DNA of 64,000 nucleotides from Liolophura sinensis (taxonomy: Eukaryota; Mollusca; Polyplacophora; Chitonida; Chitonidae): contig NC_088304.1 of assembly GCF_032854445.1 (NCBI RefSeq), positions 35,263,551 through 35,327,550 on the forward strand, in the 5' to 3' direction. Of the stretch, positions 34,141-64,000 are shown one piece after another. Position 1 is the first letter of the stretch, and every line of letters starts with the position of its first letter. The position numbers and the translations under genes were made by a program. The notes under the pieces were generated by a model. That model had not been told where the DNA came from. It worked only from the letters and a program-made list of their open reading frames with translations, and did no database searches.

Positions 34141-34261
34141 CTATATGATGACAATACGCAGGACCACGACACTGGTGTGAACGTGTGCCCTGTCTTACGC
34201 TCGTTGAAGACAACTTGCCTTCCAACAGTATATGGTGTACATATCTGTACTTCACTCGTGA

Positions 34262-42092: not shown

Positions 42093-43719
42093 TATATGAT
42101 CAACAAGTTTGAAATCTTTATCAAGTTCTAGAAACCTTAATCAGTTGATTTCATCTTAGAAGCTATAGGAGATAAAACATGGAATACAGTCTTTTCTCAG
42201 AAACCGCAGTCTAGGCTTTGTTACTCGCAGGCATATTGTGTAAACCGCTTACAGTTCTGCTATGGTAAACAGGTTACTATTCGCGCAAATTATCTGGCAT
42301 GTCACTTGTTTTTCAATAGTAATAACGTCACTCAAACTCTTGGCGTCGAAAACAAACTGCGGGAGTTTCACATTATGAACTTTAATAAGCACTCCAAAGG
42401 TATTTTGTTTGCAATGATGTGGACGTCAATTATACGTGCAGAGGTGTAGAACTTGTGGTATTCCTGCAACTTTCTCACAGTGGAGGCCGTGAAAAAACTT
42501 ACAAGTTTGAAAATATAGTCTGGACCCTTGACTCGATTGGCATTTGTGTTGTTAGAACAGGGAGGTTACACAAACCTAGGTACTGGACTAGTTTGGATGT
42601 AATTGTATGTTTGGCGTGTCTTTTCAAGACAGTTTAAAACACGGCAGCGGATTGGTTTTAAGCATGCCACATTGCAAGGCTGTGATTGGCTAATTAGTGA
42701 ACTTCCGCTTTTATGAGTACATGATGCATCAAAGCTAAAGTATAAATGTAGTTGCACGTGCAAATGCTGTTTTTATGTCCTTTGCTGTGGCGTTGGCTGT
42801 GTCGCCTGGCTTTATGTTACCCATCCACCTCACCCTCTAATTACAGCTGTAAGCTGAAATGGGGTATCTAAATGATATTGGTGTAGATACATGTACGTGG
42901 TAACAACTCACACTTTAAGGTTAAGAATTATATTGCCTTGTGGCCACACGTAATATGTCCTCCTATGTACATGCATATTAATACCTGCAGCTTTGTGGCG
43001 CTCGTGACAGATTTATATATTTTAGTATTAGTATGTTAGATTAGTTATAATAAAATTTTTAATGTGACAATAAAATTTTAGTATTCGTCAAACCGTTGTT
43101 GTGTTTTAACCTAAAGGAGAGCAAACCCATGATTATAATCAGATATAGATTCCCTCTCTATAAAGATTCACCTCAAAATAGAGTTACTTTTGCTTTCAGT
43201 CCGTCCAATGACGAACTACTCATCGAATGTAGAGGGCAAGTCTTCGGAGTAATGAGAATTATACAGTTTGAAAATATTGTCAAATACGTGAAGTGAAATT
43301 AAGGGAAGAGCCGACACAAAATACTCAACAAAGAATACCAGTTTAAGTCAGAATAATCTGGAAAGGACTGCGAATAAATATTTCATAGGGTCTATAGCAA
43401 TTAAGTAAAAAGTGTATCTACCACGCCATCCTGACAGGTCCAACATTCAATTAGAGCGGAAGAATCTACAAATTTCGTATATAAGGCCGGAGTTGAGCTC
43501 CCACCTTGTGAGCTTAGCTCGATGATAGACTAGGCAATTAATAGAAATGAATTAATCGTATATAAATGTTCTATTCTGATTTTTAGACACCCAAGCGTCA
43601 TTTACCGTAAACAGATGGTACAGCCCCTTTCATTGGTCAGGTTAAATTATGTTAATCAGCTAGCTCTGAGCCAACGAATCAGAATTTGCGGTTCTTAGCA
43701 GAAGACTTTGCCTCAGAAG
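42093..43719. other. Spacer before the tRNA array
   Basis: Short frames only. One at 43130-43294 (+), starting MIIIRYRFPLYKD, has a normal ATG but no recognisable domain. No repeat family seen. Confidence 0.4.
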
Positions 43720-44160
43720 ACTGACTATTTTGATGGTAAAATATCACACAAATAAAAGACAGGCACCAGGGAACCAGTTCGTACAAGGAAACATCAATTC
43801 TAATGGAAGAACAGCGAATAGCTATTACATGAGATCAAGTAATTAATAGACCTATTGAGGGAGTCCACCGCTTTCTGAGAAACCAAAGATAAATAAATAA
43901 GAGCAAAGAATTCAGACAGAAATATATAATACAATTAAAGACGTACAGTAGGCATTCTCAACAGAAAACTACCGTACAAAGAAACAGGAATGAGAGGGTT
44001 TTGAAATCTCGGCCTCCAATTACACCACCTGTTAAGATCACATGACAATTACAAGCTGTTTTGGTGATCATAGATCTTGTTTAACGATTTCAGCAATTAC
44101 ACAAACTTATTTTTAAGAATTTTACAGAACACGTTGTTTTCAAACAATTTTGTTATCAGC
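43720..44160 (-). repeat. First array unit, tRNA deleted
   Basis: The unit reads AAAGACAGGCACCAG at 43757-43771, then jumps directly to GGAACCAGTTCGTACAAGG, which is the text about 190 bp past the tRNA in other units. CCAG/ACCAG microhomology at the junction suggests a deletion that removed all but a few bases of the tRNA. Confidence 0.8.
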
Positions 44161-44207
44161 TAAAGGGTCGTTTACTTTGATGGTAAAATATCACACAAAT
44201 TAAAGAC

Positions 44208-44281
44208 AGGCACCAGAGGGAGTCGAATCCTCGACCTCCAGTTTACAAGACTGGCGCTCTAACCAACTGAGATATGGCGCC
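44208..44281 (-). pseudogene. tRNA-Thr(UGU)-like, damaged
   Basis: 74-nt cloverleaf with full 7-bp acceptor pairing. An A-box change (TATCTC instead of TAGCTC) and a broken T-stem pair (GGATTCGA instead of GGGTTCGA) make function doubtful. Anticodon loop CTTGTAA. Confidence 0.75.
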
Positions 44282-44866
44282 TCGACGCGACAACGATCTG
44301 GCTTATCAAACAAGATGCTCTCGTCTGCTTTCTCCAGTTTTCACTCAGGTGTTCCATTTTGGCTATCGACCACTCCATATGATCATGAACTTGGTGAACC
44401 AGTAGGTACAAGAAAACATCAATTCTACTGGAAGAACAGTAAATAGTTATAACATGAGATCAACTAATTAACAGACCTATTGAGGGAGTCTACGGCTTTC
44501 AGAGAAGAAAAGATAAATAAATAAGAGCAAAGAATTCAGACAGAAATATATAATACAATTAAAGACTTACAGTAGTCCTTCTAAACAGAAAGCTACCGTA
44601 CGAAGAAACAGGAATGAGAGGGGTTTGAAATCTCGTCCTCCAATTAAACCACCTGTATGTAATTGTAAAACATTAAGTTCACATGACAATTACAAGCTGT
44701 TTTGGTGATCATAGATCTTGTTTAACGATTTCAGCAATTACATAAAATTACTTTTAAAAATTTTACGGAACACGTTGTTTTCAAACAATTTTGTTATCAG
44801 CGAAAGAGTCATTTGCCAAAAGAAGTCTAGCTATTTTGATGGTAAAATATTACACAAATAAAAGAC

Positions 44867-44940
44867 AGGCACCAGAGGGAGTCGAACCCTCGACCTCCAG
44901 TTTACTAGACTGGCGCTCTAACCAACTGAGCTATGGCGCC
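44867..44940 (-). tRNA. tRNA-Thr(AGU)
   Basis: Intact 74-nt cloverleaf: acceptor GGCGCCA/TGGTGCC, A box TAGCTCAGTTGG, anticodon stem CCAGT/ACTGG with loop CTAGTAA, T arm GAGGG-TTCGACT-CCCTC (B box GGTTCGACTCC), discriminator T. Pol III TTTT stop 4 nt downstream. Confidence 0.95.
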
Positions 44941-45510
44941 TCGACGCGATAACCATAATGCTCTTGTCTGCTTTCTCCAGTTTTCACTCTGGTGTTACAT
45001 TTTGGCTATCGACAACTCCATATGATCATGAACTGGGTGAAACAGTAGGTACAAGAAAACATCAATTCTACTGGAAGAACAGTGAACAGTTATTACATGA
45101 GATCAAGTAATTAACAAAACTATTGAAGGAGTCCACGGCTTTCAGAGAAAGCAAAGATAAATAAATAAGAGCAAAGAATTCAGACAGAAATATATAATAC
45201 AATTAAAGACTTACAGTAGGCCTTCTCAACAGAAAACTACCGTACGAAAAAACAGGAATGAGAAGGGTTTGAAATCTCGGCCTCCAATTACACCACATGT
45301 ATATAATTGTAAAACGTTAAGATCACATGACAATGACAAGCTGTTTTGGTGAACACAGATCTTGTTTAACGATTTCAGCAATTACACAAACTTATTTTTA
45401 AGAATTTTACAGAACACGTTGTTTTCATACAGTCTTGTCATCAGGGAAAGAGTAGTTTGCCAATAGAAGCCTAGCTATTTTGATGGCAAAATATTACACA
45501 AATAAACGAC

Positions 45511-45584
45511 AGGCACCAGAGGGAGTCGAACCCTCGACCTCCAGTTTACAAGACTGGCGCTCTAACCAGCTGAGCTATGGCCCC
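45511..45584 (-). tRNA. tRNA-Thr(UGU), one acceptor mismatch
   Basis: As the intact copies but the 5' acceptor is GGGGCCA against TGGTGCC, giving a G3-G70 clash. Anticodon loop CTTGTAA. T and D arms intact. Only TTT directly downstream. Confidence 0.8.
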
Positions 45585-46195
45585 TCGACGCGACAACGAT
45601 CTGGCTTATCAACCATAATGCTCTCGTCTGCTTTCTCCAGTTTTCACGCAGGTGTTACATTTTGGCTATCGACCACTCCATATGATCATGAACTGGGTGA
45701 ACCAGTAGGTACAAGAAAACATCAATTCTACTGGGAGAACAGTGAATAGTTATTACATGAGATCAAGTAATTAACAGACCTATTGAAGGAGTCTACGGCT
45801 TCCAGAAAAAGCAAAGATAAATAAATAAGAGCAAAGAATTCAGACAGAAAAATATAGTACAATTAAAGACGTACAGTAGGCCTTCTCAACAGAAAACTAC
45901 CGTACGAAGAAACAGGAATAAGAGGGTTTTGAAATCTCGGCCTCCAGTTACACCACCTGTATATAATTGTAAAACGCTAAGATCACATGACAATTACAAG
46001 CTGTTTTGGTGAGCACAGATCTTGTTTAACGTTTTCAGCAATTACACAAACTTATTTTTAAGAATTTTACAGAACACGTTGTTTTCAAACAATTTTGTCA
46101 TCAGCGAAAGAGTCGTTTGCCAAAGGAAGCCTAGCTAATTTGATGGTAAAATATTACAAATATGATGATGTTAAAATATCACACAAATAAACGAC

Positions 46196-46269
46196 AGGCA
46201 CCAGAGGGAGTAGAACCCTCGACCTCCAGTTTACCAGACTGGCGCTCTAACCAACTGAGCTCTGGCGCC
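46196..46269 (-). pseudogene. tRNA-Thr(GGU)-like, B box damaged
   Basis: Anticodon loop CTGGTAA gives GGU, unique in this array. The T loop reads TTCTACT (B-box G lost) and the A box starts GAGCTC. Probably a pseudogene. Confidence 0.8.
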
Positions 46270-46829
46270 TTGATGCGACAACGATCTGGCTTATCAAACA
46301 AGATGTTCTCGTCTGCTTTCTCCAGTTTTCACTCAGGTGTTCCATTTGGGCTATCGACCACTCCATATGATCATGAACTGGGTGAAACAGTAGGTACAAG
46401 AAAACATCAATTCTACTGGAAGAACAGTGAACAATTATTACATGAGATCAAGTAATAACCAGACCTATTGAAGGAGTCTACGGATTCCAGAAAAAGCAAA
46501 GATAAATAAATAAGAGCAAAGAATTCAGACAGAAATATATAATACAATTAAAGACGTACAGTAGGCCTTCTCAACAGAAAACTACCGTACGAAGAAACAG
46601 GAATGAGAGGGTTTTGAAATCTCGGCCTCCAATTACACCACCTGTATAAAATTGTAAAACGTCAATATCACATGACAATTACAAGCTGTTAGATAGACCT
46701 TGTTTAACGATTTCAGCAATTACACAAACTTATTTTTAAGAATTTTACGGAACACGTTGTTTTCTAACAATTTTGTTATCAGTTAAAGGGTCATTTATTT
46801 AATGGTAAAATGTCACACGAATTAAAGAC

Positions 46830-46903
46830 AGGCACCAGAGGGAGTCGAACCTTCGACCTCCAGTTTACTAGACTGGCGCTCTAACCAACTGAGCTATGGC
46901 GCC
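46830..46903 (-). tRNA. tRNA-Thr(AGU), one T-stem mismatch
   Basis: Acceptor, D arm and anticodon arm intact (loop CTAGTAA). T stem GAAGG/CCCTC has one A-C mismatch. Only TTT directly downstream. Confidence 0.82.
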
Positions 46904-47489
46904 TCGACGCGACAACGATCTGGCTTATCAACCATAATGCTCTCGTCTGCTTTCTCCAGTTTTCACTCAGGTGTTCCATTTGGGCTATCGACCACTCCAT
47001 ATGATCATGAACTGGGTGAACCAGTAGGTACAAGAAAACATCAATTCTACTGGAAGAACAGTGAACAGTTATTACATGAGATCAAGTAATTAACAGACCT
47101 ATTGAGGGAGTCTACGGCTTTTAGAGAAAGCAAAGATAAATAAATAAGAGCAAAGAATTCAGACAGAAATATATAATACATTTTAAGACGTGCAGTAGGC
47201 CTTCTCAACAGAAAACTACCGTACGAAGAAACAGGAATGAGAGGGTTTTGAAATCTCGGCCTCCAGTTACACCACCTGTATATAATTGCAAAACGTTAAG
47301 ATCACATGACAATTACAGGCTGTTTTGGTGAACATAGATCTGGTTTAACGATTTCAGCAATTAAACAAACTTATTTTTAAGACTTTTACAGAACACGTTG
47401 TTTTCAAACAATTTTGTCATCAGCGAAAGAGTAGTTTGCCAAAGGAAGTCTAGCTATTTTGATGGTAAAATATCACACATATAAAAGAC

Positions 47490-47563
47490 AGGCACCAGAG
47501 GGAGTCGAACCCTCGACCTCCAGTTTACAAGACTGGCGCTCTAACCAACTGAGCTATGGCGCC
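47490..47563 (-). tRNA. tRNA-Thr(UGU)
   Basis: Fully paired cloverleaf identical to the AGU copies except anticodon loop CTTGTAA. A and B boxes canonical, TTTT stop 4 nt after the discriminator. Confidence 0.95.
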
Positions 47564-48148
47564 TCTACGCGACAACGATCTGGTTTATCAACCATAATGC
47601 TCTCGTCTGCTTTCTCCAGTTTTCACTCAAGTGTTACATTTTGGCTATCGACCACTCCATATGATCATGAACTGGGTAAACCAGTAGGTACAAGAAAACA
47701 TCAATTCTACTGGAAGAACAGTGAACAGTTATTACATGAGATCAAGTAATTAACGGACCTATTGAGGGAGTCCACGGCTTTCAGAGAAAGCAAAGATAAA
47801 TAAAAACAGCAAAGAATTCAGACAGAAATATATAATACAATTAAAGACGTACAGTAGGCCTTCTCAACAGAAAACTACCGTTCAAAGAAACAGGAATGAG
47901 AGGGGTTTAAAATCTCGGCCTCCAATTACACCACCTGTATAAAATTGTAAAACGCTAAGATCACATGACACTGACAAGCTGTTTTGGTGAACACAGATCT
48001 TGTTTAACGATTTCAGCAATTACACAAACTTATTTTTAAGAATTTTACGGAACACTTTGTTTTCAAACAATTTTGTCATCAGCGAAAGAGTCGTTTGCCA
48101 AAGGAAGTCTAGCTATTTTGATGGTAAAATATCACACATATAAAAGAC

Positions 48149-48222
48149 AGGCACCAGAGGGAGTCGAACCCTCGACCTCCAGTTTACTAGACTGGCGCTC
48201 TAACCAACTGAGCTATGGCGCC
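48149..48222 (-). tRNA. tRNA-Thr(AGU)
   Basis: Intact cloverleaf, loop CTAGTAA, canonical A and B boxes, TTTT stop directly downstream. Confidence 0.95.
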
Positions 48223-48810
48223 TTGATGCGACAACGATCTGGCTTATCAAACAAGTTGCTCTCGTCTGCTTTCTCCAGTTTTCACGCAGGTGTTCTATTT
48301 GGGCTATTGACCGCTCCATATGATCATGAACTGGGTGAACCAGTACGTACAAGAAAGCATCAATTCTACTGGAAGAACAGTGAACAGTTATTACATGAGA
48401 TCAAGTAATTAACAGACCTGTTGAGGGAGTCTACGGCTTTCAGAGAAAGCAAAGATAAATAAATAAGAGCAAAGAATTCAGACAGAAATATATAATACAT
48501 TTAAAGACGTGCAGTTGGCCTTCTCAACAGAAAACTACCTTACAAAGAAACAGGAATGGTAGAGGGTTTTGAAATCTCGGCCTCCAATTACACCACCTGT
48601 ATATAATTGGAAAACGTTAAGATCACATGACAATTACAAGCTATTTTGCTGAACATACATCTTGTTTAACGATTTCAGCAATTACACAAACTTATTTTTA
48701 AGAATTTTACGGAACACGTTGTTTTCAAACAATTTTGTCATCAGAGAACGGGTTGTTTGCCAAAGGAAGCCTAGCGATTTTGATGGTAAAATATCACACA
48801 AATAAAAGAC

Positions 48811-48884
48811 AGGCATCAGAGGGAGTCGAACCCTCGACCTCCAGTTTACTAGACTGGCGCTCTTACCAACTGAGCTATGGGGCT
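48811..48884 (-). pseudogene. tRNA-Thr(AGU)-like, acceptor broken
   Basis: D, anticodon and T arms intact, but the 5' acceptor reads AGCCCCA against TGATGCC with several mismatches. Loop CTAGTAA. Confidence 0.8.
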
Positions 48885-49470
48885 TCAAAGCCACAACGAT
48901 CTGGCCTATCAAAGAAGATGCTCTCGTCTGCTTTCTCCAGTTTTCACGCAGGTGTTCCATTTGGGCTATCGACCACTCCATATGATCATGAACTGGGTGA
49001 AACAGTAGGTACAAGAAAACATCAATTCTTCTGGAAGAACAGTAAATAGTTATTACATGAGATCCAGTTATTAACAGACCTATTGAGGGAGTCCACGGCT
49101 TTCTGAGAAAGCAAAGATAAATAAATAAGAGCAAAGAATTCAGACAGAAATATATAATACAATCTAAGACGTGCAGTAGGCCTTCTCAACAGAAAACTAC
49201 CGTACGAAGAAACAGGAGTGAGAAGGGTTTGAAATCTCGGCCTCCAATTACACCACCTGTATATAATTGTAAAACGCTAAGATCACATGATAATTACAAG
49301 CTGTTTTGGTGAACATAGATCTTCTTTAATGATTTCAGCAATTACACAAACTTATTTTTAAGAATTTTACAGAACACGTTGTTTTCAAACAATTTTGTCA
49401 TCAGCGAAAGAATCGTTTGCCAAAGGTAGTCTAGCTATTTTGATGGTAAAATATTACACAAATAGAAGAA

Positions 49471-49544
49471 ATGTAGCAGAGGGAGTCGAACTCTCGACCT
49501 CCAGTTTACAAGACTGGCGCTCTAACCAACTGAGCTATGGCGCT
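49471..49544 (-). pseudogene. tRNA-Thr(UGU)-like, acceptor broken
   Basis: 5' AGCGCCA against 3' TGCTACA leaves at least three mismatches. T stem GAGAG/CCCTC is also mismatched. Loop CTTGTAA. No clean T4 directly downstream. Confidence 0.8.
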
Positions 49545-50132
49545 TCGAAGCGCCAACGATCTGGCTTATCGACCATAATGCTCTCGTCTGCTTTCTCCGG
49601 TGTTCTGGCCGGTGTTCCATTTTGGCTATCGACCACTCCATATGATAATGAACTGGGTGAACCAGTACGTACAAGAAAACATCAATTCTAATGGTAGAAC
49701 AGTTAACAGTTATTACATGAGATCAAGTAATTAACAGATCTATTGAGGGATTCTACGGCTTTTAGAGAAAGCAAAGATAAATAAATAAGAGCAAAGAATT
49801 CAGACAGAAATATATAATACATTTGAAGACGTGCAGTAGGCCTTCTCAACAGAAAACTACCGTACGAAGAAACAGGAATGGTAGAGGGGTTTGAAATCTC
49901 GGCCTCCAGTTACACCACCTGTATATAAATGCAAAACGTTAAGATCACATGACAATTACAAGCTGTTTTGGTGATCATAGATCTGGTTTAACGATTTCAG
50001 CAATTAAACAAAGTTATTTTTAAGAATTTTACGGAACACGTTGTTTTTAAACAATTTTGTCATCAGCGAAAGGGTCGTTTGCCAAAGGAAGTCTAGCTAT
50101 TTTGATGGTAAAATATCACACATATAAAAGAC

Positions 50133-50206
50133 AGGCACCAGATGGAGTCGAACCCTCGACCTCCAGTTTACAAGACTGGCGCTCTAGCCAACTGAGCTAT
50201 GACGCC
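50133..50206 (-). tRNA. tRNA-Thr(UGU), one T-stem mismatch
   Basis: Acceptor GGCGTCA/TGGTGCC pairs through a wobble. T stem GAGGG/CCATC has one G-A clash. Loop CTTGTAA; TTTT stop downstream. Confidence 0.8.
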
Positions 50207-50796
50207 TCTACGCGACAACGATCTGGTTTATCAACCATAATGTTCTCGTCTGCTTTCTCCAGTTTTCACGCAGGTGTTACATTTTGGCTATCGACCACTC
50301 CATATGATCATGAACTTGGTGAACCAGTAGGTACAAGAAAACATCAATTCTACTGGAAGAACAGTAAATAGTTATTACATGAGATCAAGTAATTAACAGA
50401 CCTATTGAAGGAGTCCACGGCTTTTAGAGAAAGCAAAGATAAATAAAAAACAGCAAAAAAATTCATACAGAAATATATAATACAATTAAAGACGTACAGT
50501 AGGCCTTCTCAACAGAAAATTGCCGTACGAAGAAACAGGAATGAGAGGGTTTTGAAATCTCGGCCTCCAGTTACACCACCTGTATAAAATTGTAAAACGC
50601 TAAGATCACATAACAATGACAAGCTGTTTTGCTGAACATAGATCTTGTTTAACGATTTCAGCAATTACACAAACTTGTTTTTAAGAATTTTACGGAACAC
50701 GTTGTTTTGAAACAATTTTGTCATCAGCGAAAGAGTCGTTTGCCAAAGGAAGTCTAGCTATTTTGATGGTAAAATATCACACAAATAAAAAAAGAC

Positions 50797-50870
50797 AGGC
50801 ACCAGAGGGAGTCGAATCCTCGACCTCCAGTTTACTAGACTGGCGCTCTTACCAACTGAGCTATGGCGCC
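50797..50870 (-). tRNA. tRNA-Thr(AGU), B-box change
   Basis: Acceptor and anticodon arms intact. T stem reads GAGGA, breaking the near-invariant 53-61 pair and altering the B box (GATTCGACTCC). Loop CTAGTAA. Possibly weakly functional. Confidence 0.7.
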
Positions 50871-51456
50871 TCGACGCGACAACGATCTGGCTTATCAAAC
50901 AAGTTGCTCTCGTCTGCTTTCTCCAGTTTTCACTCAGATGTTCCATTTTGGCTATCGACCACTCCATATGATCATGAACTTGGTGAACCAGTAGGTACAA
51001 GAAAACATCAATTCTACTGGAAGAACAGTGAACATTTATTACATGAGATCAAGTAATTAACAGACCTATTGAAGGAGTCTACGGCTTTCAGAGAAAGAAA
51101 AGATAAATAAATAAGAACAAAGAATTCAGACAGAAATATATAATACTATTAAAGACGTACAGTAGGCCTTCTCAACAGAAAACTACCGTACGAAGAAACA
51201 GGAATGAGAGGGGTTTGAAATCTCGGCCTCCAATTACACCACCTGTATATAATTGTAAAACGTTCAGATCACATGACAATTACAAGCTGTTTTGGTGAAC
51301 ATAGATCTGGTTTAACGATTTCAGCAATTACACAAACTTAGTTTTAAGAATTTTACGGAACACGTACTTTTCAAACAAATTTGTCATCAGCGAAAGAGTC
51401 GTTTGCCAAAGGAAGTCTAGCTATTTTAATGGTAAAATATTACACAAAGGAAAGAG

Positions 51457-51530
51457 AGGAACCAGAGGGAGTCGAACCCTCGACCTCCAGTTTACTAGAC
51501 TGGCGCTCTAACCAACTGAGCTATGGTGCC
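51457..51530 (-). tRNA. tRNA-Thr(AGU), one acceptor mismatch
   Basis: 5' GGCACCA against 3' TGGTTCC: compensated A-T at one position, a C-T clash at another. Other arms intact; loop CTAGTAA. No T4 directly downstream; the TTTT in the ATTTTACC box, about 25 nt on, may serve. Confidence 0.78.
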
Positions 51531-52115
51531 TCGACGAGAGAACGATCTGGCTTATCAAACAAGATGCTCTCGTCTGCTTTCTCCAGTTTTCACGCAGGTG
51601 TTACATTTTGGCTATCGACCACTCCATATGATCATGAACTGGGTGAACCAGTAGGTACAAGAAAACATCAATTCTACTGGAAGAACAGTAAATAGTTATT
51701 ACATGAGATCAAGTAATTAACAGACCTATTGAGGGAGTCCACGGCTTTCAGAGAAAGCAAAGATAAATAAATAAGAGCAAAGAATTCAGGCAGAAATATA
51801 TAATACATTTGAAGACGTGCAGTAGTCCTTCTCAACAGAAAACTACCGTACGAAGAAACAGGAATGAGAGGGTTTTGAAATCTCGGCCTCCAGTTACACC
51901 ACCTGTATATAATTGCAAAACGTTAAGATCACATGACAATTACAAGCTGTTTTGTTGAACATAGATCTGGTTTAACAATTTTAGCAATTAAACAAACTTA
52001 TTTTTAAGAATTTCAAAGAACACGTTGTTTTCATACAATTTTGTCATCAGGGAAAGGGTCGTTTGTCTTCGAGGCCTAGCTACTTTTATGTTAAAATATC
52101 ACACAAATAAACGAC

Positions 52116-52189
52116 ATGCAACAGAGGGAGTCGAACCCTCGACCTCCAGTTTACTAGACTGGCGCTCTAACCAACTGAGTTTTGGCGCT
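52116..52189 (-). pseudogene. tRNA-Thr(AGU) pseudogene, lineage A
   Basis: Acceptor AGCGCCA/TGTTGCA mismatched and A box altered to AAACTCAG. Anticodon loop CTAGTAA and T arm intact. The same changes recur at 55395 and 57371. Confidence 0.85.
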
Positions 52190-52773
52190 TCGACGCAACA
52201 AGTATCTGGCTTATCAAACAAGATTTTCTCGTCTGCTTTCTCCAGTTTTTACGCAGGTGTTACATTTTGGCTATCGTTCACTCCATATGATTATGAACTG
52301 GGTGAACCAGTAGGTACAAGAAAACATCAATTCCACTGGAAGAACAGTAAATAGTTATTACATGAGATCAAGTAATTAACAGACCTATTGAGGGAGTCCA
52401 CGGCTTTCAGAGAAAGCAAAGATAAATAAATAAGAGCAAAGAATTTGGACAGAAATATATAATACAATTAAGACGTACAGTAGGCCTTCTCAACAGAAAA
52501 CTACCGAACGAAGAAACAGGAATGAGAAAGTTTTAAAACCTCGGCCTCTAATTACACCACCTGTATATAATTGTAAAACGCTAAGATCACATGACAATTA
52601 CAAGCTGTTTTGGTGAACATACATCTTGTTTAACGATTTCAGCAATTACACAAACTTATTTTTAAGAATTTTGCAGAACACGTTGTTTTCAAACAATTTT
52701 GTCATCAGCAAAAGGGTCGTTTGCCAAAGGAAGCTTAGCGATTTTGATGGTAAAATATCATACAAATAAATGC

Positions 52774-52847
52774 AGGCACCAGAGGGAGTCGAACCCTCGA
52801 CCTCCAGTTTACTAGACTGGCGCTCTAACCAGCTTAACTATATCGCT
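52774..52847 (-). pseudogene. tRNA-Thr(AGU) pseudogene, lineage B
   Basis: 5' AGCGATA no longer pairs with TGGTGCC and the D arm reads TAGTTAAGCTGG (still A-box-like). Loop CTAGTAA and T arm intact. The same changes recur at 56054 and 58030. Confidence 0.85.
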
Positions 52848-53432
52848 TCGACGCGACAACGATCTGGCTTATCAAACAAGTTGCTCTCGTCTACTTTCTC
52901 CAGTTTTTACTCAGGTGTTCCATTTGGGCTATCGACCACTCCATATGATCATGAACTGGGTGAACCAGTAAGTACAAGAAAACATCAATTCCACTGGAAG
53001 AACAGTAAATAGTTATTACATGAGATCAAGTAATTAACAGACCTATTGAGGGAGTCCACGGCTTTCAGAGAAAGCAAAGATAAATAAATAAGAGCAAAGA
53101 ATTCAGACAGAAATATATAATACATTTGAAGATGTGGAGTAGGCCTTCTCAACAGAAAACTACCGTACGAAGAAACAGGAATGAGAGGGTTTTGAAATCT
53201 CGGCCTCCAGTTACACCACCTGTATATAATTGCAAAACGTTAAGATCAAATGACAATTATAAGCTGTTTTGGTGAACATAGATCTTGTTTAACGATTTCA
53301 GCAATTAAACAAGCTTATTTTTAAGAATTTCGCAGACCACGTTGTTTTCAAACATTTTTGTCATCAGGGAAAGAGTCGTTTGCCTTCGAGGCTTAGCTAC
53401 TTTGATGTTAAAATATCACACAAATAAAAGAC

Positions 53433-53506
53433 AGGCACCAGAGGGAGTCGAACCCTCGACCTCCAGTTTACTAGACTGGCGCTCTAACCAACTGAGCTAT
53501 GGCGCC
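53433..53506 (-). tRNA. tRNA-Thr(AGU)
   Basis: Intact cloverleaf, loop CTAGTAA, canonical A and B boxes, TTTT stop downstream. First member of lineage C, whose upstream flank is shortened (CTTGCATGACAAC). Confidence 0.95.
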
Positions 53507-54091
53507 TTGCATGACAACAACCTGGCTTATCAACCATAATGCTCTCGTCTTCTTTCTCCAGTTTTCATGCAGGTGTTACATTTTGGCTATCGACCACTTC
53601 ATATGATCATGAACTGGGTGAACCAGTAGGTACAAGAAAACATCAATTCCACTAGAAGAACAGTAAATAGTTATTACATGAGATCAAGTAATTAACAGAC
53701 CTATTGATTTAGTGCACGGCTTTCAGAAAAAGCAAAGATAAATAAAAAACAGCAAAGAATTCAGACAGAAATATATAATACAAATAAAGACGTACAGTAG
53801 GCCTTCTCAACAGAAAACTACCGAACGAAGAAACAGGAATGAGAGGGGTTTGAAATCTCGGCCTCCAATTACACCACCTGTATATAATTGTAAAACGCTA
53901 AGATCACATGACAATTACAAGCTGTTTTGGTGAACACAGATCTTGCTTAACGATTTCAGCAATTACACAAACTTATTTTTAAAAATTTTACAGAACACGT
54001 TGTTTTCAAACAATTTTGTCATCAGCGAAAGAGTCGTTTGCCAAAGGAAGCCTAGCTATTTTGATGGTAAAATATTACACAAATAGAAGAC

Positions 54092-54165
54092 AGGCACCAG
54101 AGGGAGTCGAACCCTCGACCTCCAGTTTACAAGACTGGCGCTCTAACCAACTGAGCTATGGCGCC
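54092..54165 (-). tRNA. tRNA-Thr(UGU)
   Basis: Intact cloverleaf, loop CTTGTAA. Immediate downstream sequence is GTCTTCTATTTG with no T4; the next TTTT is about 25 nt on. Confidence 0.93.
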
Positions 54166-54735
54166 TCGACGTGATAACCATAATGTTCTTGTCTGCTTTC
54201 TCTAGTTTTTACTCAGGTGTTCCATTTTGACTATCGACCACTTCATATGATCATGAACTGGGTGAACCAGTAGGTACAAGAAAACATCAATTCTACTGGA
54301 AGAACAGTTAACAGTTATTACATGAGATCAAGTAATTAACAGACCTATTGAGGGAGTCCACGGCTTTCAGAGAAAGCAAAGATAAATAAATAAGAGCAAA
54401 GAATTCAGACAGAAATATATAATACATTTGAAGATGTGCAGTAGGCCTTCTCAACAGAAAACTACCGTACGAAGAAACAGGAATGAGAGGGTTTTGAAAT
54501 CTCGGCCTCCAGTTACACCACCTGTATATAATTGTAAAACGTTAAGATCAAATGACAATTACAAGCTGTTTTGGTGAACATAGATCTGGTTTAACGATTT
54601 CAGCAATTACACAAACTTATTTTTAAGAATTTTACGGAACACGTTGTTTTTAAACAATTTTGTCATCAGCGAAAGAGTCGTTTGCCAAAGGAAGTCTAGC
54701 TATTTTAATGGTAAAATATTACACAAATGAAAGAG

Positions 54736-54809
54736 AGGCACCAGAGGGAGTCGAACCCTCAACCTCCAGTTTACTAGACTGGCGCTCTAACCAACTGAGC
54801 TATGGCGCC
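54736..54809 (-). tRNA. tRNA-Thr(AGU)
   Basis: Intact pairing; a single change in the variable loop (AGGTT instead of AGGTC). Loop CTAGTAA. Only TTT directly downstream. Confidence 0.92.
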
Positions 54810-55394
54810 TCGACGAGACAACGATCTGGCTTATCAAACAAGATGCTCTCGTCTGCTTTCTCCAGTTTTCACTTGGATGTTACATTTTGGCTATCGACCA
54901 CTTCATATGATCATGAACTGGGTGAACCAGTAGGTACAAGAAAACATCAATTCTACTGGAAGAACAGTAAATAGTTATTACATGAGATCAAGTAATTAAC
55001 AGACCTATTGAGGGAGTCCATGGCTTTTAGAGAAAGCAAAGATAAATAAATAAGAGCAAAGAATTCATGCAGAAATATATAATACATTTGAAGACGTACA
55101 GTAGGCCTTCTCAACAGAAAACTACCGTACGAAGAAACAGGAATGAGAGGGGTTTGAAATCTCGGCCTCCAGTTACACCACATGTATATAATTGCAAAAC
55201 GTTAAGATCACATGACAATTACAAGCTGTTTTCGTGAACATAGATCTTGTTTAACGATTTCAGCAATTAAACAAACTTATTTTTAAGAATTTCAAAGAAC
55301 ACGTTGTTTTCAAACAATTTTGTCATCAGGGAAAGGGTCGTTTGCCTTCGAGGCCTAGCTACTTTTATGTTAAAATATCACACAAATAAACGAC

Positions 55395-55468
55395 ATGCAA
55401 CAGAGGGAGTCGAACCCTCGACCTCCAGTTTACTAGACTGGCGCTCTAACCAACTGAGTTTTGGCGCT
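55395..55468 (-). pseudogene. tRNA-Thr(AGU) pseudogene, lineage A
   Basis: Same acceptor and A-box lesions as 52116, so a copy of that unit. Loop CTAGTAA. Confidence 0.85.
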
Positions 55469-56053
55469 TCGACGCAACAAGTATCTGGCTTATCAAACAA
55501 GATTTTCTCGTCTGCTTTCTCCAGTTTTTACGCAGGTGTTACATTTTGGCTATCGACCACTCCATATGATCATGAACTGGGTGAACCAGTAGGTACAAGA
55601 AAACATCAATTCCACTGGAAGAACAGTAAATAGTTATTACATGAGATCAAGTAATTAACAGAAGTATTGAGGGAGTCCACGGCTTTCAGAGAAAGCAAAG
55701 ATAAATAAATAAGAGCAAAGAATTCAGACAGAAATATATAATACAATTAAAGACGTACAGTAGGCCTTCTCAACAGAAAACTACTGAATGAAGAAACAGG
55801 AATGAGAAAGTTTTAAAACCTCGGCCTCTAATTACACCACCTGTATATAATTGTAAAACGCTAAGATCACATGACAATTACAAGCTGTTTTGGTGAACAT
55901 ACATCTTGTTTAACGATTTCAGCAATTACACAAACTTATTTTTAAGAATTTTGCAGAACACGTTGTTTTCAAACAATTTTGTCATCAGCAAAATGGTCGT
56001 TTGCCAAAGGAAGCTTAGCGATTTTGATGGTAAAATATCACACAAATAAATGC

Positions 56054-56127
56054 AGGCACCAGAGGGAGTCGTATCCTCGACCTCCAGTTTACTAGACTGG
56101 CGCTCTAACCAGCTTAACTATATCGCT
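56054..56127 (-). pseudogene. tRNA-Thr(AGU) pseudogene, lineage B
   Basis: Same lesions as 52774 plus a damaged T loop (GGATACGACTCC), so further decayed. Confidence 0.85.
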
Positions 56128-56712
56128 TCGACGCGACAACGATCTGGCTTATCAAACAAGTTGCTCTCGTCTACTTTCTCCAGTTTTTACTCAGGTGTTC
56201 CATTTGGGCTATCGACCACTCCATATGATCATGAACTGGGTGAACCAGTAGGTACAAGAAAACATCAATTCCACTGGAAGAACAGTAAATAGTTATTACA
56301 TGAGATCAAGTAATTAACAGACCTATTGAGGGAGTCCACGGCTTTCAGAGAAAGCAAAGATAAATAAATAAGAGCAAAGAATTCAGACAGAAATATATAA
56401 TACATTTGAAGATGTGGAGTAGGCCTTCTCAACAGAAAACTACCGTACGAAGAAACAGGAATGAGAGGGTTTTGAAATCTCGGCCTCCAGTTACACCACC
56501 TGTATATAATTGCAAAACGTTAAGATCAAATGACAATTATAAGCTCTTTTGGTGAACATAGATCTTGTTTAACGATTTCAGCAATTAAACAAACTTATTT
56601 TTAAGAATTTCGCAGAATACGTTGTTTTCAAACATTTTTGTCATCAGGGAAGTCGTCGTTTGCCTTCGAGGCTTAGCTACTTTGATGTTAAAATATCACA
56701 CAAATAAAAGAC

Positions 56713-56786
56713 AGGCACCAGAGGGAGTCGAACCCTCGACCTCCAGTTTACTAGACTGGCGCTCTAACCAACTGAGCTATGGCGCC
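56713..56786 (-). tRNA. tRNA-Thr(AGU)
   Basis: Intact cloverleaf of lineage C, loop CTAGTAA, TTTT stop downstream. Confidence 0.95.
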
Positions 56787-57370
56787 TTGCATGACAACGA
56801 CCTGGCTTATCAACCATAATGCTCTTGTCTTCTTTCTCCAGTTTTCACGCAGGTGTTACATTTTGGCTATCGACCACTCCATATGATCATGAACTGGGTG
56901 AACCAGTACGTACAAGAAAACATCAATTCCACTGGAAGAACAGTAAATAGTTATTACATGAGATCAAGTAATTAACAGACCTATTGAGTTAGTGCACGGC
57001 TTTCAGAAAAAGCAAAGATAAATAAATAAGAGCAAAGAATTCAGACAGAAATATATAATACAATTAAAGACTTACAGTAGGCCTTCTCAACAGAAAACTA
57101 GCGAACGAAGAAACAGGAATGAGAGGGGTTTGAAATCTCGGCCTCCAATTACACCACCTGTATATAATTGCAAAACGTTAAGATCACATGACAATTACAA
57201 GCTGTTTTGGTGAACATAGATCTGGTTTAACGATTTCAGCAATTAAACAAACTTATTTTTAAGAATTTCAAAGAACACGTTGTTTTCATACAATTTTGTC
57301 ATCAGGGAAAGGGTCGTTTGCCTTCGAGGCCTAGCTACTTTTATGTTAAAATATCACACAAATAAACGAC

Positions 57371-57444
57371 ATGCAACAGAGGGAGTCGAACCCTCGACCT
57401 CCAGTTTACTAGACTGGCGCTCTAACCAACTGAGTTTTGGCGCT
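57371..57444 (-). pseudogene. tRNA-Thr(AGU) pseudogene, lineage A
   Basis: Third copy with the 52116 lesions, 1976 bp after the 55395 copy. Loop CTAGTAA. Confidence 0.85.
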
Positions 57445-58029
57445 TCGACGCAACAAGTATCTGGCTTATCAAACAAGATTTTCTCGTCTGCTTTCTCCAG
57501 TTTTTACGCAGGTGTTACATTTTGGCTATCGACCACTCCATATGATCATGAACTGGGTGAACCAGTAGGTACAAGAAAACATCAATTCCACTGGAAGAAC
57601 AGTAAATAGTTATTACATGAGATCAAGTAATTAACAGAAGTATTGAGGGAGTCCACGGCTTTCAGAGAAAGCAAAGATAAATAAATAAGAGCAAAGAATT
57701 CAGACAGAAATATATAATACAATTAAAGACGTACAGTAGGCCTTCTCAACAGAAAACTACCGTACGAAGAAACAGGAATGAGAAGGGTTTGAAATCTCGG
57801 CCTCCAATTACACCACCTGTATATAATTGTAAAACGTTAAGATCACATGACAATGACAAGCTGTTTTGGTGAACACAGATCTTGTTTAACGATTTCAGCA
57901 ATTACACAAACTTATTTTTAAAAATTTTACAGAACACGTTGTTTTCAAACAATTTTGTCATCAGCAAAAGGGTCGTTTGCCAAAGGAAGCTTAGCGATTT
58001 TGATGGTAAAATATCACACAAATAAATGC

Positions 58030-58103
58030 AGGCACCAGAGGGAGTCGAACTCTCGACCTCCAGTTTACTAGACTGGCGCTCTAACCAGCTTAACTATATC
58101 GCT
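58030..58103 (-). pseudogene. tRNA-Thr(AGU) pseudogene, lineage B
   Basis: Third copy with the 52774 lesions plus one T-stem change (GAGAG). Loop CTAGTAA. Confidence 0.85.
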
Positions 58104-58688
58104 TCGACGCGACAACGATCTGGCTTATCAAACAAGTTGCTCTCGTCTACTTTCTCCAGTTTTTACTCAGGTGTTCCATTTGGGCTATCGACCACTCCAT
58201 ATGATCATGAACTGGGTGAACCAGTAGGTACAAGAAAACATCAATTCCACTGGAAGAACAGTAAATAGTTATTACATGAGATCAAGTAATTAACAGACCT
58301 ATTGAGGGAGTCCACGGCTTTCAGAGAAAGCAAAGATAAATAAATAAGAGCAAAGAATTCAGACAGAAATATATAATACATTTGAAGATGTGGAGTAGGC
58401 CTTTTCAACAGAAAACTACCGTACGAAGAAACAGGAATGAGAGGGTTTTGAAATCTCGGCCTCCAGTTACACCACCTGTATATAATTGCAAAACGTTAAG
58501 ATCAAATGACAATTATAAGCTGTTTTCGTGAACATAGATCTTGTTTAACGATTTCAGCAATTAAACAAACTTATTTTTAAGAATTTCGCAGAACACGTTG
58601 TTTTCAAACATTTTTGTCATTAGGGATATCGTCGTTTGCCTTCGAGGCTTAGCTACTTTGATGTTAAAATATCACACAAATAAAAGAC

Positions 58689-58762
58689 AGGCACCAGAGG
58701 GAGTCGAACCCTCGACCTCCAGTTTACTAGACTGGCGCTCTAACCAACTGAGCTATGGCGCC
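58689..58762 (-). tRNA. tRNA-Thr(AGU)
   Basis: Intact cloverleaf of lineage C, loop CTAGTAA, TTTT stop downstream. Confidence 0.95.
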
Positions 58763-59324
58763 TTGCGTGACAACGACCTGGCTTATCAACCATAATGCTC
58801 TCGTCTTCTTTCTCCAGTTTTCACGCAGGTGTTACATTTTGGCTATCGACCACTCCATATGATCATGAACTTGGTGAACCAGTAGGTACAAGAAAACATC
58901 AATTCTACTGGGAGAACAGTGAATAGTTATTACATGAGATCAAGTAATTAACAGACCTATTGAGTTAGTGCACGGCTTTCAGAGAAAGCAAAGATAAATA
59001 AATAAGAGCAAAGAATTCAGACAGAAATATATAATACAATTAAAGACTTACAGTAGGCCTTCTCAACAGAAAACTAGCGAACGAAGAAACAGGAATGAGA
59101 GGGGTTTGAAATCTCGGCCTCCAATTACACCACCTGTATATAATTGTAAAACGCTAAGATCACATGACAATTACAAGCTGTTTTGTTGAACATAGATCTT
59201 GTTTAACGATTTCAGCAATTACACAAACTTATTTTTAAGAATTTTGCAGAACACGTTGTTTTCAAACAGTTTTGTCATCAGCGAAAGAGTCGTTTGCCAA
59301 AGGAAGCCTAGCTATTTTGATGGT

Positions 59325-59345
59325 AAAATATTACACAATTCAGAC
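59325..59345. other. Deletion junction in array unit that lost its tRNA
   Basis: TGGTAAAATATTACACAATT joins directly to CAGACAGAAATATATAATAC, skipping the tRNA and about 340 bp of the unit. This explains the 981-bp spacing between neighbouring tRNAs. Confidence 0.85.
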
Positions 59346-59669
59346 AGAAATATATAATACATTTGAAGATGTGCAGTAGGCCTTCTCAACGGAAAACTAC
59401 CGTACGAAGAAACAGGAATGAGAGGGTTTTGAAATCTCGGCCTCCAGTTACACCACCTGTATATAATTGCAAAACGTTAAGATCAAATGACAATTACAAG
59501 CTGTTTTGGTGAACATAGATCTTGTTTAACGATTTCAGCAATTAAACAAAGTTATTTTTAAGAATTTCGCAGAACACGTTGTTTTCAAACAATTTTGTCA
59601 TCAGGGAAAGGGTCGTTTGCCTCCGAGGCCTAGCTACTTTGATGTTAAAATATCACACAAATAAAAGAC

Positions 59670-59743
59670 ATTTACCAGAGGGAGTCGAACCCTCGACCTC
59701 CATTTGACTAGACTGGCGCTCTAACCAACTGAGCTATGGCTCC
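59670..59743 (-). pseudogene. tRNA-Thr(AGU)-like, acceptor and anticodon stem damaged
   Basis: 5' GGAGCCA against 3' TGGTAAA does not pair at the end. Anticodon stem 3' side reads AAATGG instead of AACTGG. A and B boxes remain. Confidence 0.8.
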
Positions 59744-60328
59744 TTAACGCGCCAACGATCTGGCTTATCAAACAAGATGCTCTCGTCTTCTTTCTCCAGT
59801 TTTCACTCAGGTGTTCCATTTGGGCTATTGACCACTCCATATGATCATGAACTGGGTGAACCAGTACGTACAAGAAAACATCAATTCTACTGGAAGAACA
59901 GTGAATAGTTATTACATGAGATCAAGTAATTAACAGACCTATTGAGGGAGTCTACGGCTTTCAGAGAAAGCAAAGATAAATAAATAAGAGCAAAGAATTC
60001 AGACAGAAATATATAATACAATTAAAGACGTACAGTAGGCCTTCTCAACAGAAAACTACCGCGCGGAGAAACAGGAATGAGAGGGGTTTGAAATCTCGGC
60101 CTCCAATTACACCACCTGTATAAAATTGTAAAACGTTAAGATCACATGTCAATGACAAGCTGTTTTGGTGAACATAGATCTGCTTTACGATTTTACCAAT
60201 TACACAAACTTATTTTTAAGAATTTTACAGAACACGTTGTTTTCAAACAATTTTGTCATCAGCGAAAGAGTCGTTTGCCAATGGAAGCCTAGCTATTTTG
60301 ATGGTAAAATATTACAGAAATAAAAGAC

Positions 60329-60402
60329 AGGCACCAGAGGGAGTCGAACCCTCGACCTCCAGTTTACTAGACTGGCGCTCTAACCAACTGAGCTATGGCA
60401 CC
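60329..60402 (-). tRNA. tRNA-Thr(AGU)
   Basis: Acceptor GGTGCCA/TGGTGCC pairs with two G-U wobbles; all other arms intact. Loop CTAGTAA; TTTT stop downstream. Confidence 0.9.
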
Positions 60403-60987
60403 TCGACGCGACAACGATCTGGCTTATCAACCATAATGCTCTCGTCTGCTTTCTCCAGTTTTCACGCAGGTGTTACATTTTGGTTATCGACCACTCCATA
60501 TGATCATGAACTGGGTGAACCAGTACGTACAAGAAAACATCAATTCTACTGGAAGAACAGTGAACAATTATTACATGAGATCAAGTAATTAACAGACCTA
60601 TTGAGGGAGTCCATGGCTTTTAGAGAAAGCAAAGATAAATAAATAAGAGTAAAGAATTCAGACAGAAATATAGAATGCAATTAAAGACGTACAGTAGGCC
60701 TTCTCAACAGAATTCTACCGTACAAAGAAACGGGAATGAGAGGGGTTTGAAATCTCGGCCTTCAATTACACCACCTGTATATAATTGTAAAACGTTAAGA
60801 TTAAATGACAATTACAAGCTCTTTTGGTGATCATAGATCTTGTTTAACGATTTCAGTAATTATAGAAACATATTTTTAAGAATTTTGCAGAACACGTTGT
60901 TTTTATACAGTTTTGTCATCAGCGAAAGGGTCGTTTGCTGCCGAGGCCTAGCTATTTTGATGGTAAAATATCACACAAATGAAAGAG

Positions 60988-61034
60988 AGGCACCAGAGGG
61001 AGTCGAACCCTCGACCTCCAGTTTACTAGACTGG
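60988..61034 (-). pseudogene. Truncated tRNA-Thr(AGU), 3' half only
   Basis: T arm, variable loop and anticodon arm are present to CCAGT; then the unit jumps to ATATAATTGTAAAACG, deleting the D arm, the 5' acceptor and about 470 bp. Confidence 0.9.
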
Positions 61035-61126
61035 ATATAATTGTAAAACGTTAAGATCACATGACAATTACAAGCTGTTTTGGTGATCATAGATCTTGTT
61101 AAACGATTTTAGCAATGACACAAACA

Positions 61127-64000
61127 TTTTTTTTTTTTTTTTGTTGAATTTGATCCCAGATTGTCATAACATACACAAGATTTAACAATACCCGGCTATC
61201 ACAAACTTTTGAAATCACAAGGCAATCTTAATTAAAATAAAATATCACAGAAAAGATGACTGCTTTTTGAATAGAACAATTGCACATTAGGTGCTCATTT
61301 CAATAAATACACTAATTAATCATTCCGTAATGTACAGAAGACTTTGTTTATACACCAGATTTTCTCCAAAGATGGCCTGTCTAGTCGAAAAAAGTTAATA
61401 TGAATACGGGTTTTAATTATTCCTTTGGCAGCCTTAACAATGGCAACAGCATCCCTGTTCTTTTTCTGAAATATTATGTCGTTGCGTGCACACCAAATAC
61501 ACATACAAATAACACATATGACATACACCATCACCGCTCTAACTTCCTGGTTTAAGGTGGAATTGAATACCTTGTAAATTAATGTTTTCGAGTCCATATT
61601 TGGTAGGTAGTTCGCAAACAAAACAAATATCCGGTTAAAGTCATTAAACACATCCTGAACGATCTTACATTGTACAAACATTGTACATTGTTGCTGAGTT
61701 TCAGACAGGGAGCAAAAAACACACAAGTCATCGGTTGCTACATTTCTCCTAAGAATTTTTTCTTTAACGGGCAAAATGTCATGAACCAACTTGTAAGTGA
61801 AGTTGACTCATTGTGATCTAAGAGTTGATGAAAAACAGTTTTCCATTTTCTAACCCAGTCCAAATGCGGCATAGACAACATTGCTCTTGGACAATGTACT
61901 ATTTTTGTTACAAAATATTCATAAATATACCTGCTTGAACACAATGTTACAGGTTGCTGTACACCTGTGGTAAATTCTCTCCAGGCGCTCAAGGCCAGTC
62001 TATAAAAAGGTGGAATGTTTTCAGAATGTGGGACATTGGAGCGACAGAATTCACGACAAACATGCCTTAAGGGTAAACCCAACCAATAGATGGCAAAGTA
62101 TTTCCATTCCGCTGTTGTTCCATGAATTAATTTTAAAACATGCCGAGTAACAAGTGCTTTTATTTTACATTCTATATTATGTACGTTTAGACCTCCATTC
62201 CCTATTTTATTATGTACGACAACTCTCTTCAAACTTTCGGACTTGTTATCCCACAAAAATCTGAACACAGTTTGGGAACATTGATTGACACATTTAGGTG
62301 GCAACAGAGTACACTGTGCAGAAAACCATAAGACAGCTAAAGCAACTGTATTAATTAAGACATACCTCCCCCGTACGGTCAAATATCTTCCATTCCATGC
62401 TGATACATGTTTCTTTACCTTACTTAAAACACGCTCAGAATTGAGTTCTGTTTGATCTGGTCCAAAAAATACCCCACAAATCTTTGAGTTTGTAGTGATG
62501 TTAAGCCCACCACTGTGCACGTTAGTTTCGTCCCAGTTACCAATGGGAAGAACTGTGCTTTTTAACAGGTTGAGTTTTGCCCCTGAGGCTTTTCCATAAC
62601 TTTCTGCTATTTTAATTACATGCGGAACAGAACTCTCTTCAGATAAAATTGCAGTCGTATCATCTGCAAATGCGGACACTCTTGTTCCCTTATTTGTGCC
62701 GGGTAACCGTATACCATTAATTTCGTCATTGTTTCTAATGGCCGCTATAAAGGGCTCTAAGGACAACACATACAATAATGGTGACAAAGAACAACCCTGT
62801 CGGACACCTCGACTCAGTTTAAATTCTTCTGTTATGTGCCCGTTCACAATAACACTACTTGTAATGTCAGTATATAATAATTGCACCCACTTACAAAAGT
62901 CGGGTCCGAAGTTAAATTTCTCTAAACATTTGAACAAAAATGACCAGTCTACTCTGTCAAAGGCTTTCTCCTGGTCTAAGTTAAGAAAGCATCCTTTTAA
63001 ATCTTTTTGTTCAACATAATCATATGTATTTCGTAATAAGTGAAGGTTGTCAAAAATACTTCGTCCTGGTATTCCACATGTCTGATTCTGAAGTACAATT
63101 GTATCGATCACATTTTTTAACCGATTGCACAAAGCGTTAGAAACAATCTTATAATCTACATTTAGTAAGCTAATTGGCCTCCAGTTTTTTATGCTTTCGG
63201 CATTGTCGGGGTCCTTACATAATAGTGTGATTAACCCAGAACGCTGTGAATTACTTAATCTACCCAAGTTAAAACAGTAATTAACTACATCCGTAAACAC
63301 ACCCGAAAACAGGGGCTAAAATTGTACATAAAACTCTGCTGGCAAACCGTCGCATCCAGGCGAACGGTTTTTAGACATATTTTTTATTGCAAAAAACAAC
63401 TCCTGTTCAGTCAAAAGGCCTTCGCAGGCAGTTTTACAATCGTCATTTAACATCGGAAGCGATGACAAGAACTCATCTTGAATGGAGGAGTCAGTATCTT
63501 GTTCAGTATACAATTTCATATAATACGACCTTATACACTTAGCAATACCTTCCTGAGATTCATGGGATATTGAAGAATCACTATGACAAGTAATACTTTT
63601 GATCATCTTCCTTCTGCCCCTACCAACCACTCCCTGATCAAAATGAACAGCTTTAGCACGGATAACCGCTCCCGCATGATTAGACTTATAAAGGGCATTT
63701 AGAGTCTTTTTCACATTGTCAATACGCTCACAGCTAATGATTGGACTAGATTTTAACGCATTTAATTCTTGTTCAAGTTCCAACAAATCACGTTTTTTGT
63801 TCATAGATTTCTCCTTACAGTAACTCCGAATTCTGTCTTTACATTCCCTTTTAAATGTCTCCCATCTGTCTATTAGATCTGCATGACCAGTTGTACAGAC
63901 AGAGAAAATATCATGGAAGACTGATTTAATATTATCAACAAGCTCCGTGTCATTTAACACAGAAGTATTACACTTCCAGTAGAACGGCCCCCATGAAATG
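61127..64000 (-). mobile_element. L1/Tx1-type non-LTR retrotransposon (LINE), 5' end outside window
   Basis: On the minus strand: linker, reverse transcriptase and C-terminal domain, a 3' UTR of about 190 bp and a poly(A) tail seen as 16 T at 61127-61142. The tail follows AATGACACAAACA of the tRNA-array unit, where the undisturbed unit reads ACACAAACTTATTTTTAAGA. This places the insertion at TTTTT/AA, the cleavage preference of L1-type endonucleases. The endonuclease domain would lie beyond position 64000. Confidence 0.92.
61316..64000 (-). pseudogene. LINE ORF2-like polyprotein (reverse transcriptase), two lesions
   Basis: The frame is open from the window edge and reads GPFYWKCNTSVLND, the EN-RT linker (CIRSYYMKLYTEQ), MSKNRSPGCDGLPAEFY, then an in-frame TAG at 63316-63318. 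It continues with RPISLLNVDYKIVSNAL, LNLDQEKAFDRVDW, SRGVRQGCSLSPLLYVLSLE and SAFADDTTAIL (the FADD catalytic box, about 62650-62680). The frame ends at 61738. The C-terminal part continues in another frame from about 61789 to the stop at 61316 and holds a CVFC..ET....C zinc-knuckle-like motif. It therefore has one nonsense and one frameshift. The RT motifs place it in the L1/Tx1 group. Confidence 0.9.

Follow-up and report, generated by a model that had tools for sequence, protein, structure and literature searches.

An isotype-specific tRNA-Thr array in the chiton Liolophura sinensis and an L1-like LINE family found downstream of RNA polymerase III genes

How a tRNA gene of one isotype came to be repeated head to tail over many kilobases, and how a retrotransposon came to lie within the repeat, are the questions raised by a locus of the chiton Liolophura sinensis. 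The stretch analysed comprises 64,000 nucleotides of contig NC_088304.1 (C10:35263551-35327550, hereafter the window) from an assembly of 609.5 Mb in 632 scaffolds (PMC11068029). It contains tRNA-Thr genes in units of about 659 bp and part of a long interspersed nuclear element (LINE) that splits their array. Our reading, to which we assign a probability of about 0.8, is that the locus is an isotype-specific tRNA-Thr array subject to unequal exchange, and that the element belongs to an L1-like LINE family landing downstream of genes transcribed by RNA polymerase III (Pol III).

At this locus, tRNA genes of a single isotype are arrayed in tandem, some members being intact and others decaying. 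In window coordinates its first part spans 43707-61134 on the minus strand. The Rfam tRNA model detected 25 tRNA copies at 44208-60402, all on the minus strand and in head-to-tail units, and ARAGORN assigned 20 of these to tRNA-Thr; with a truncated copy at 60988-61034 the total is 26, the number of loci in 17 kb that an original prediction, made from the letters of the window, had counted. That prediction ended the array at 61126, which proved too early: the array restarts at 66277 and finishes at 68199 with three further intact tRNA-Thr units, and the whole array of 28 units (C10:35307257-35331749) extends beyond the window. The near-constant spacing held for units of 634-685 bp but not for one unit of 986 bp, which holds a 333-bp partial duplication (59337-59668). 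A spacer as conserved as the gene was nearly right: compared in pairs, the 28 units were on average 91.9% identical in their spacer and 93.8% in their tRNA. The spacer had no matches outside the C10 locus in a genome search; counts from the genome searches are lower bounds throughout.

Turnover of the array by unequal exchange, also part of the original prediction, is supported because near-identical blocks are offset by whole units and because a deletion joins a tRNA to a spacer relic. In the unit identity matrix a five-unit block a-b-c-d-e (units 12-16, 51456-54734) was found together with a repeated block a-b-c-d (units 17-20, 54735-57369) and a repeated block b-c-d (units 21-23, 57370-59336), all on the minus strand. 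Matching units were 96.6% (12/17), 97-98% (13/18/21) and 98.5-98.8% (14/19/22) identical, against a background of about 92% between units; unit d is chimeric and matches less closely. The offsets correspond to five units (3279 bp) and three units (1976 bp), and exchanges therefore shifted several units together. A tRNA 3' half also survives in the spacer as a relic, recognised by a 36-bp match that was equalled in 0 of 500 shuffles. In the unit alignment the truncated tRNA-Thr at 60988-61034 (minus strand) retains only its 3' part and is fused to this relic: unit positions 2-48 and 426-549 overlap at 61010-61034, where a deletion joins tRNA and relic within shared sequence. This deletion is a direct trace of unequal homologous exchange, the process through which the array would grow, shrink and homogenise. 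Unit diversity was highest in the roughly 75 bp flanking the tRNA on each side (0.122 vs 0.068, p=1.6e-4), also for non-CpG positions only (0.098 vs 0.063, p=0.013; rotation rank 16/659). Transcription-associated mutagenesis was considered as the cause and is not relied on, as part of the signal is CpG and a second tRNA-Thr array (C1:39.92-39.95 Mb) did not have the pattern.

The element between the two array parts is a full-length LINE of 5149 bp (61128-66276, ending at L020:2276). Its 3' part with a poly-A tail of about 16 nt occupies 61128-64000 on the minus strand, and the remainder runs past the window. Junction comparison revealed a 7-bp target-site duplication, CAAACAT, with its left copy at 61121-61127 and its right copy at about 66277 (L020). 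When the flanks were joined across the LINE, they gave normal unit sequence, and this empty site matches other units: the insertion is precise. The LINE lies 122 bp downstream of the tRNA of unit 26, on the same strand. It encodes an APE endonuclease, an L1 ORF2-like reverse transcriptase frame (61741-63315, minus strand; PF00078, E=3.9e-37) whose closest match among solved structures is L1 ORF2p, and an ORF1 with CCHC-like motifs (read by eye). A C-terminal zf-RVT-like segment lies in another frame owing to a frameshift (61319-61807, minus strand; PF13966, E=2.7e-4, just below the curated cut-off). The endonuclease, reverse transcriptase, poly-A tail and target-site duplication identify it as an L1-like LINE, in which ORF2 is interrupted by one in-frame stop and one frameshift.

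The same LINE family was found next to Pol III genes across the genome. Its 3' end matched at least about 40 places at 93-95% identity, and copies on C3 (Phe), C8 (Ile), C9:19.63-19.67 Mb, C12:24.46 Mb and C23 were situated in or beside tRNA clusters that separate tRNA searches had found. Thirty loci, the window copy included, were selected solely by similarity to the 5' end of the window LINE, and their flanks were scanned with ARAGORN and Rfam. The sampled copies were 92-96% identical, and 28 of the 30, representing 22 of the 24 independent junctions, were located downstream of a Pol III gene. At 26/30 loci a same-strand Pol III gene ended 34-231 bp upstream of the LINE; the median distance over the 30 loci was 106 bp, with 23 within 30-150 bp and 26 within 231 bp. 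The targets included tRNA genes for Thr, Gly, Leu (three anticodons), Asp, His, Pro, Glu, Ala, Asn, Ile, Phe and Arg as well as, at two loci, 5S rRNA genes (131 and 82 bp). At L058 a masked 73-nt block lies at 145 bp, where the array carries tRNA-Phe, and at L055 a truncated tRNA-Ile begins 126 bp upstream of the LINE. Among loci of known unit length, 20 of 21 had the gene within 230 bp, compared with 9.9 expected under uniform placement (P<1e-5), and random placement within units is thus rejected. Several diverged relatives (about 70-75%) in the tRNA-Thr array on C1 shared this orientation, and their 5' ends lay near tRNA genes.

These regularities suggest a targeting mechanism. The LINE family would integrate downstream of Pol III genes at a distance of 34-231 bp (median about 106 bp), oriented with their transcription, next to any isotype and to 5S genes as well. 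Because position and strand are kept while isotype is indifferent and 5S is included, the Pol III complex rather than a sequence appears to be recognised; the LINE proteins would locate their target via the Pol III machinery on tRNA and 5S genes. The arrays may serve as a safe haven in which the loss of one unit among many costs little. A wider proposal, towards which we lean with distinctly less confidence, holds that an animal LINE lineage finds any Pol III gene via the transcription machinery and integrates at a set distance downstream, independently of the dictyostelid TREs, with the arrays as its permanent habitat and the LINE as a driver of array turnover.

Several points weigh against this account. 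Two copies (L054, L062) are located just upstream of the site where neighbouring units carry the tRNA. The copies other than that of the window were seen by their 5' flank only, the target-site duplication was checked at one locus, and the 30 loci are those closest to the window copy, with truncated and distant copies outside the sample. In addition, several LINE-proximal tRNAs score below their neighbours, a feature not required of a target in active use. At L036, L037, L040, L041, L042 and L046 the LINE-adjacent tRNAs were often 5-30 bits below their array neighbours; the His copies behaved in the opposite way. Silencing of LINE-adjacent tRNAs after insertion is possible.

The association could also reflect retention, if the LINE inserted widely and survived mainly in tRNA and 5S arrays that tolerate insertions. 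Tolerance of multicopy arrays is the usual argument for target-specific elements (PMC3706591), LINE copies are indeed found in arrays, and the purging of insertions elsewhere could add to the association, a further point against targeting. Retention nevertheless predicts a scatter over units of 350-1300 bp and both orientations, whereas the 26 measured cases lay at 34-231 bp on the same strand; moreover, the 92-96% identity of the elements leaves limited time for purging. We regard retention as an unlikely explanation. Slightly less likely still is recognition of a DNA sequence in the array spacers by the LINE endonuclease, as in Dewa, which targets the zebrafish tRNA-Leu spacer. Sequence-specific insertion into multicopy genes is a known property of LINEs of the Tx1 clade (PMC4640811, PMC3706591), but the 24 independent junctions had no common motif except a G beside the element, which may be element-derived, and the spacers of different arrays are unrelated, as judged from the two Thr arrays. 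The spread of one ancestral tRNA+LINE unit to many arrays by segmental duplication would account for the identical junctions of four copies in a tRNA-Asn array, where unit and LINE were amplified together, and is very improbable for the family given 24 distinct junctions, about a dozen isotypes plus 5S and differing distances.

Equally improbable is an origin of the tRNA array as an assembly artefact or as a family of tRNA-derived short interspersed nuclear elements (SINEs), the two outcomes that would have undone the original prediction. Repeats are prone to assembly error, coverage was only 14X and C99, the mitochondrial contig, is plainly an assembly product, but the units are about 8% divergent with each carrying its own changes, the HiFi reads have a mean length of 8.3 kb (PMC11068029), the empty site of the LINE is clean and lies inside one unit, the spacer is not dispersed and multiple copies fold as intact tRNAs. 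The dispersed head and body of a tRNA-derived SINE were not observed, the spacer being confined to C10, and a SINE origin is rejected. Contig C99 itself repeats the mitochondrial genome head to tail about seven times, with a period of about 15.5 kb.

Targeting as proposed here has counterparts among known elements. TRE3, an L1-clade element of Dictyostelium, inserts 40-150 bp downstream of tRNA genes in the same orientation (PMC5911963). With a median distance of 106 bp on the same strand, the chiton LINE shares this position and orientation, and its distance range of 34-231 bp is slightly wider; by analogy it behaves like TRE3, a statement on behaviour and not on identity or descent. TRE3, whose targeting depends on the B box and TFIIIC, resides in a compact, haploid genome, while the chiton LINE is hosted by an animal with a 609-Mb genome and, unlike TRE3, targets mostly long tandem arrays and includes 5S rRNA. 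TRE5-A targets both tRNA and 5S genes and its ORF1 protein binds TFIIIB (PMC5911963); it resembles the chiton LINE in this reach but inserts upstream rather than downstream. Animal LINEs tied to tRNA genes or their spacers are Dewa of zebrafish and LIN15_SM and LIN25_SM of planarians (PMC3706591, PMC4640811). In the open-licence literature each of these is linked to one isotype, in contrast to the many isotypes and 5S of the chiton LINE, which has no common site. A Dewa-type sequence-specific LINE with a fixed target and one isotype was considered as a classification and rejected.

In the open-licence literature the habit of landing just downstream of Pol III genes is documented mainly for slime moulds; among yeasts and social amoebae, targeting of these genes is on record and has been attributed to their compact genomes. 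If our reading is true, a LINE of a metazoan with a 609-Mb genome would show the same position, strand and 5S behaviour. This would imply that compactness is not required, and it would offer a natural animal system for studying how the Pol III complex is read by LINE proteins.

A substantial share of the tRNA-Thr copies is intact, with Pol III promoter and terminator. Intact copies, defined by four fully paired stems plus A box and B box, numbered 12 of 28 across the array and nine of the 25 within the window. All nine lie on the minus strand. Six carry the anticodon AGT and have a terminator of four Ts (T4) within 10 nt: 44866-44941 and 48148-48223, both also identified by ARAGORN, and 53432-53507, 56712-56787, 58688-58763 and 60328-60403, recognised by stems and boxes. 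The others are 47489-47564 (TGT; ARAGORN, Rfam, stems and boxes), 54091-54166 (TGT) and 54735-54810 (AGT), the latter two by stems and boxes. The original prediction of nine copies with both boxes and a terminator was correct in the number, but T4 occurred within 10 nt in seven of them, and only at +20 in those starting at 54091 and 54735. T4 was located at +4 in most intact copies, and a second T4 near +20 was present in most copies; the two intact genes without a near T4 thus still have a backup terminator. Judged from their tRNA structure, the intact copies are probably transcribed.

The prediction of a single isotype was accurate in that all copies are Thr, but they are not one isoacceptor: six copies have TGT, two of them intact, and one (46195-46270, minus strand; ARAGORN, box check) has GGT, with mutated A and B boxes, and is probably dead. 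AGT is probably the ancestral anticodon, since it prevails in this array, in the C1 array and in single copies on C7 and C12. One intact copy of the C1 array is likewise TGT. Sequences similar to Thr-TGT (at most 93% identity to human Thr-TGT) were clustered on C5, C12 and C23; the human tRNA-Thr queries served as search probes only, the matches being classed by similarity. Since such sequences exist elsewhere in the genome, the shifted copies are probably additions to the Thr-TGT supply, and the idea that they are its only source was not supported. Arrays of this kind permit the birth, anticodon change and decay of tRNA genes to be followed one unit at a time.

The tRNA-Thr array is one of many isotype-specific arrays and not unique in this chiton: arrays for Lys, Phe, Ile, Cys, Asp, His, Asn and other isotypes are present in the same genome. 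An A-box/B-box pattern search detected Phe, Cys and Ile clusters and about 45 copies of tRNA-Lys(CTT) with a period of about 900 bp (C1:70388237-70430362); this Lys array is very uniform, bigger and more homogeneous than the Thr array. Arrays of Asp, His, Pro, Glu, Asn and 5S genes were found around LINE copies. The C10 and C1 Thr arrays have no common spacer, only the tRNA and its nearest flank matching, and therefore arose separately. In some arrays isotypes are mixed on opposite strands, as in L034 (C7, about 17 kb; Gly and Met) and L043 (C12:24.458 Mb; Thr-CGT and Arg-TCT), which thereby differ from the single-isotype array on C10.

Zebrafish, stickleback and Nematostella are among the animals whose tRNA genes occur in clusters (PMC2888827). 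Genes for tRNAs are likewise clustered or arranged head to tail in Entamoeba, in the Ser-Tyr-Tyr cluster of Arabidopsis and in zebrafish and stickleback (PMC2652664, PMC12308677, PMC2888827). The Arabidopsis cluster resembles the chiton array in its mixture of intact and decayed copies. Unlike those clusters, the chiton array has one tRNA per unit of about 659 bp; the arrays of this genome differ by isotype and have LINEs embedded in them.

Some further features were recorded. A 5S rRNA array with a period of about 239 bp on C6 (20.47-20.49 Mb; L035, L051) contains the same LINE, and at L035 the LINE junction directly adjoins what was read by eye as a tRNA-like 5' half, probably of Ser or Leu. 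In a tRNA-Asn array (C11:22.217-22.238 Mb) the LINE copies L046, L047, L048 and L060 recur with identical junctions every 6.7 kb or so, and the LINE thus appears to be part of the amplified unit. Within the window, an open frame of 427 amino acids with hydrophobic stretches and without a Pfam match is located at 40285-41568 on the plus strand. Minisatellites are plentiful at 1-34143, with repeats of 47 bp (6-1510), 67 bp (6643-8650), 43 bp (25 copies, 17941-19029), 42 bp (38 copies, 27425-29016) and 34 bp (24 copies, 33324-34143).

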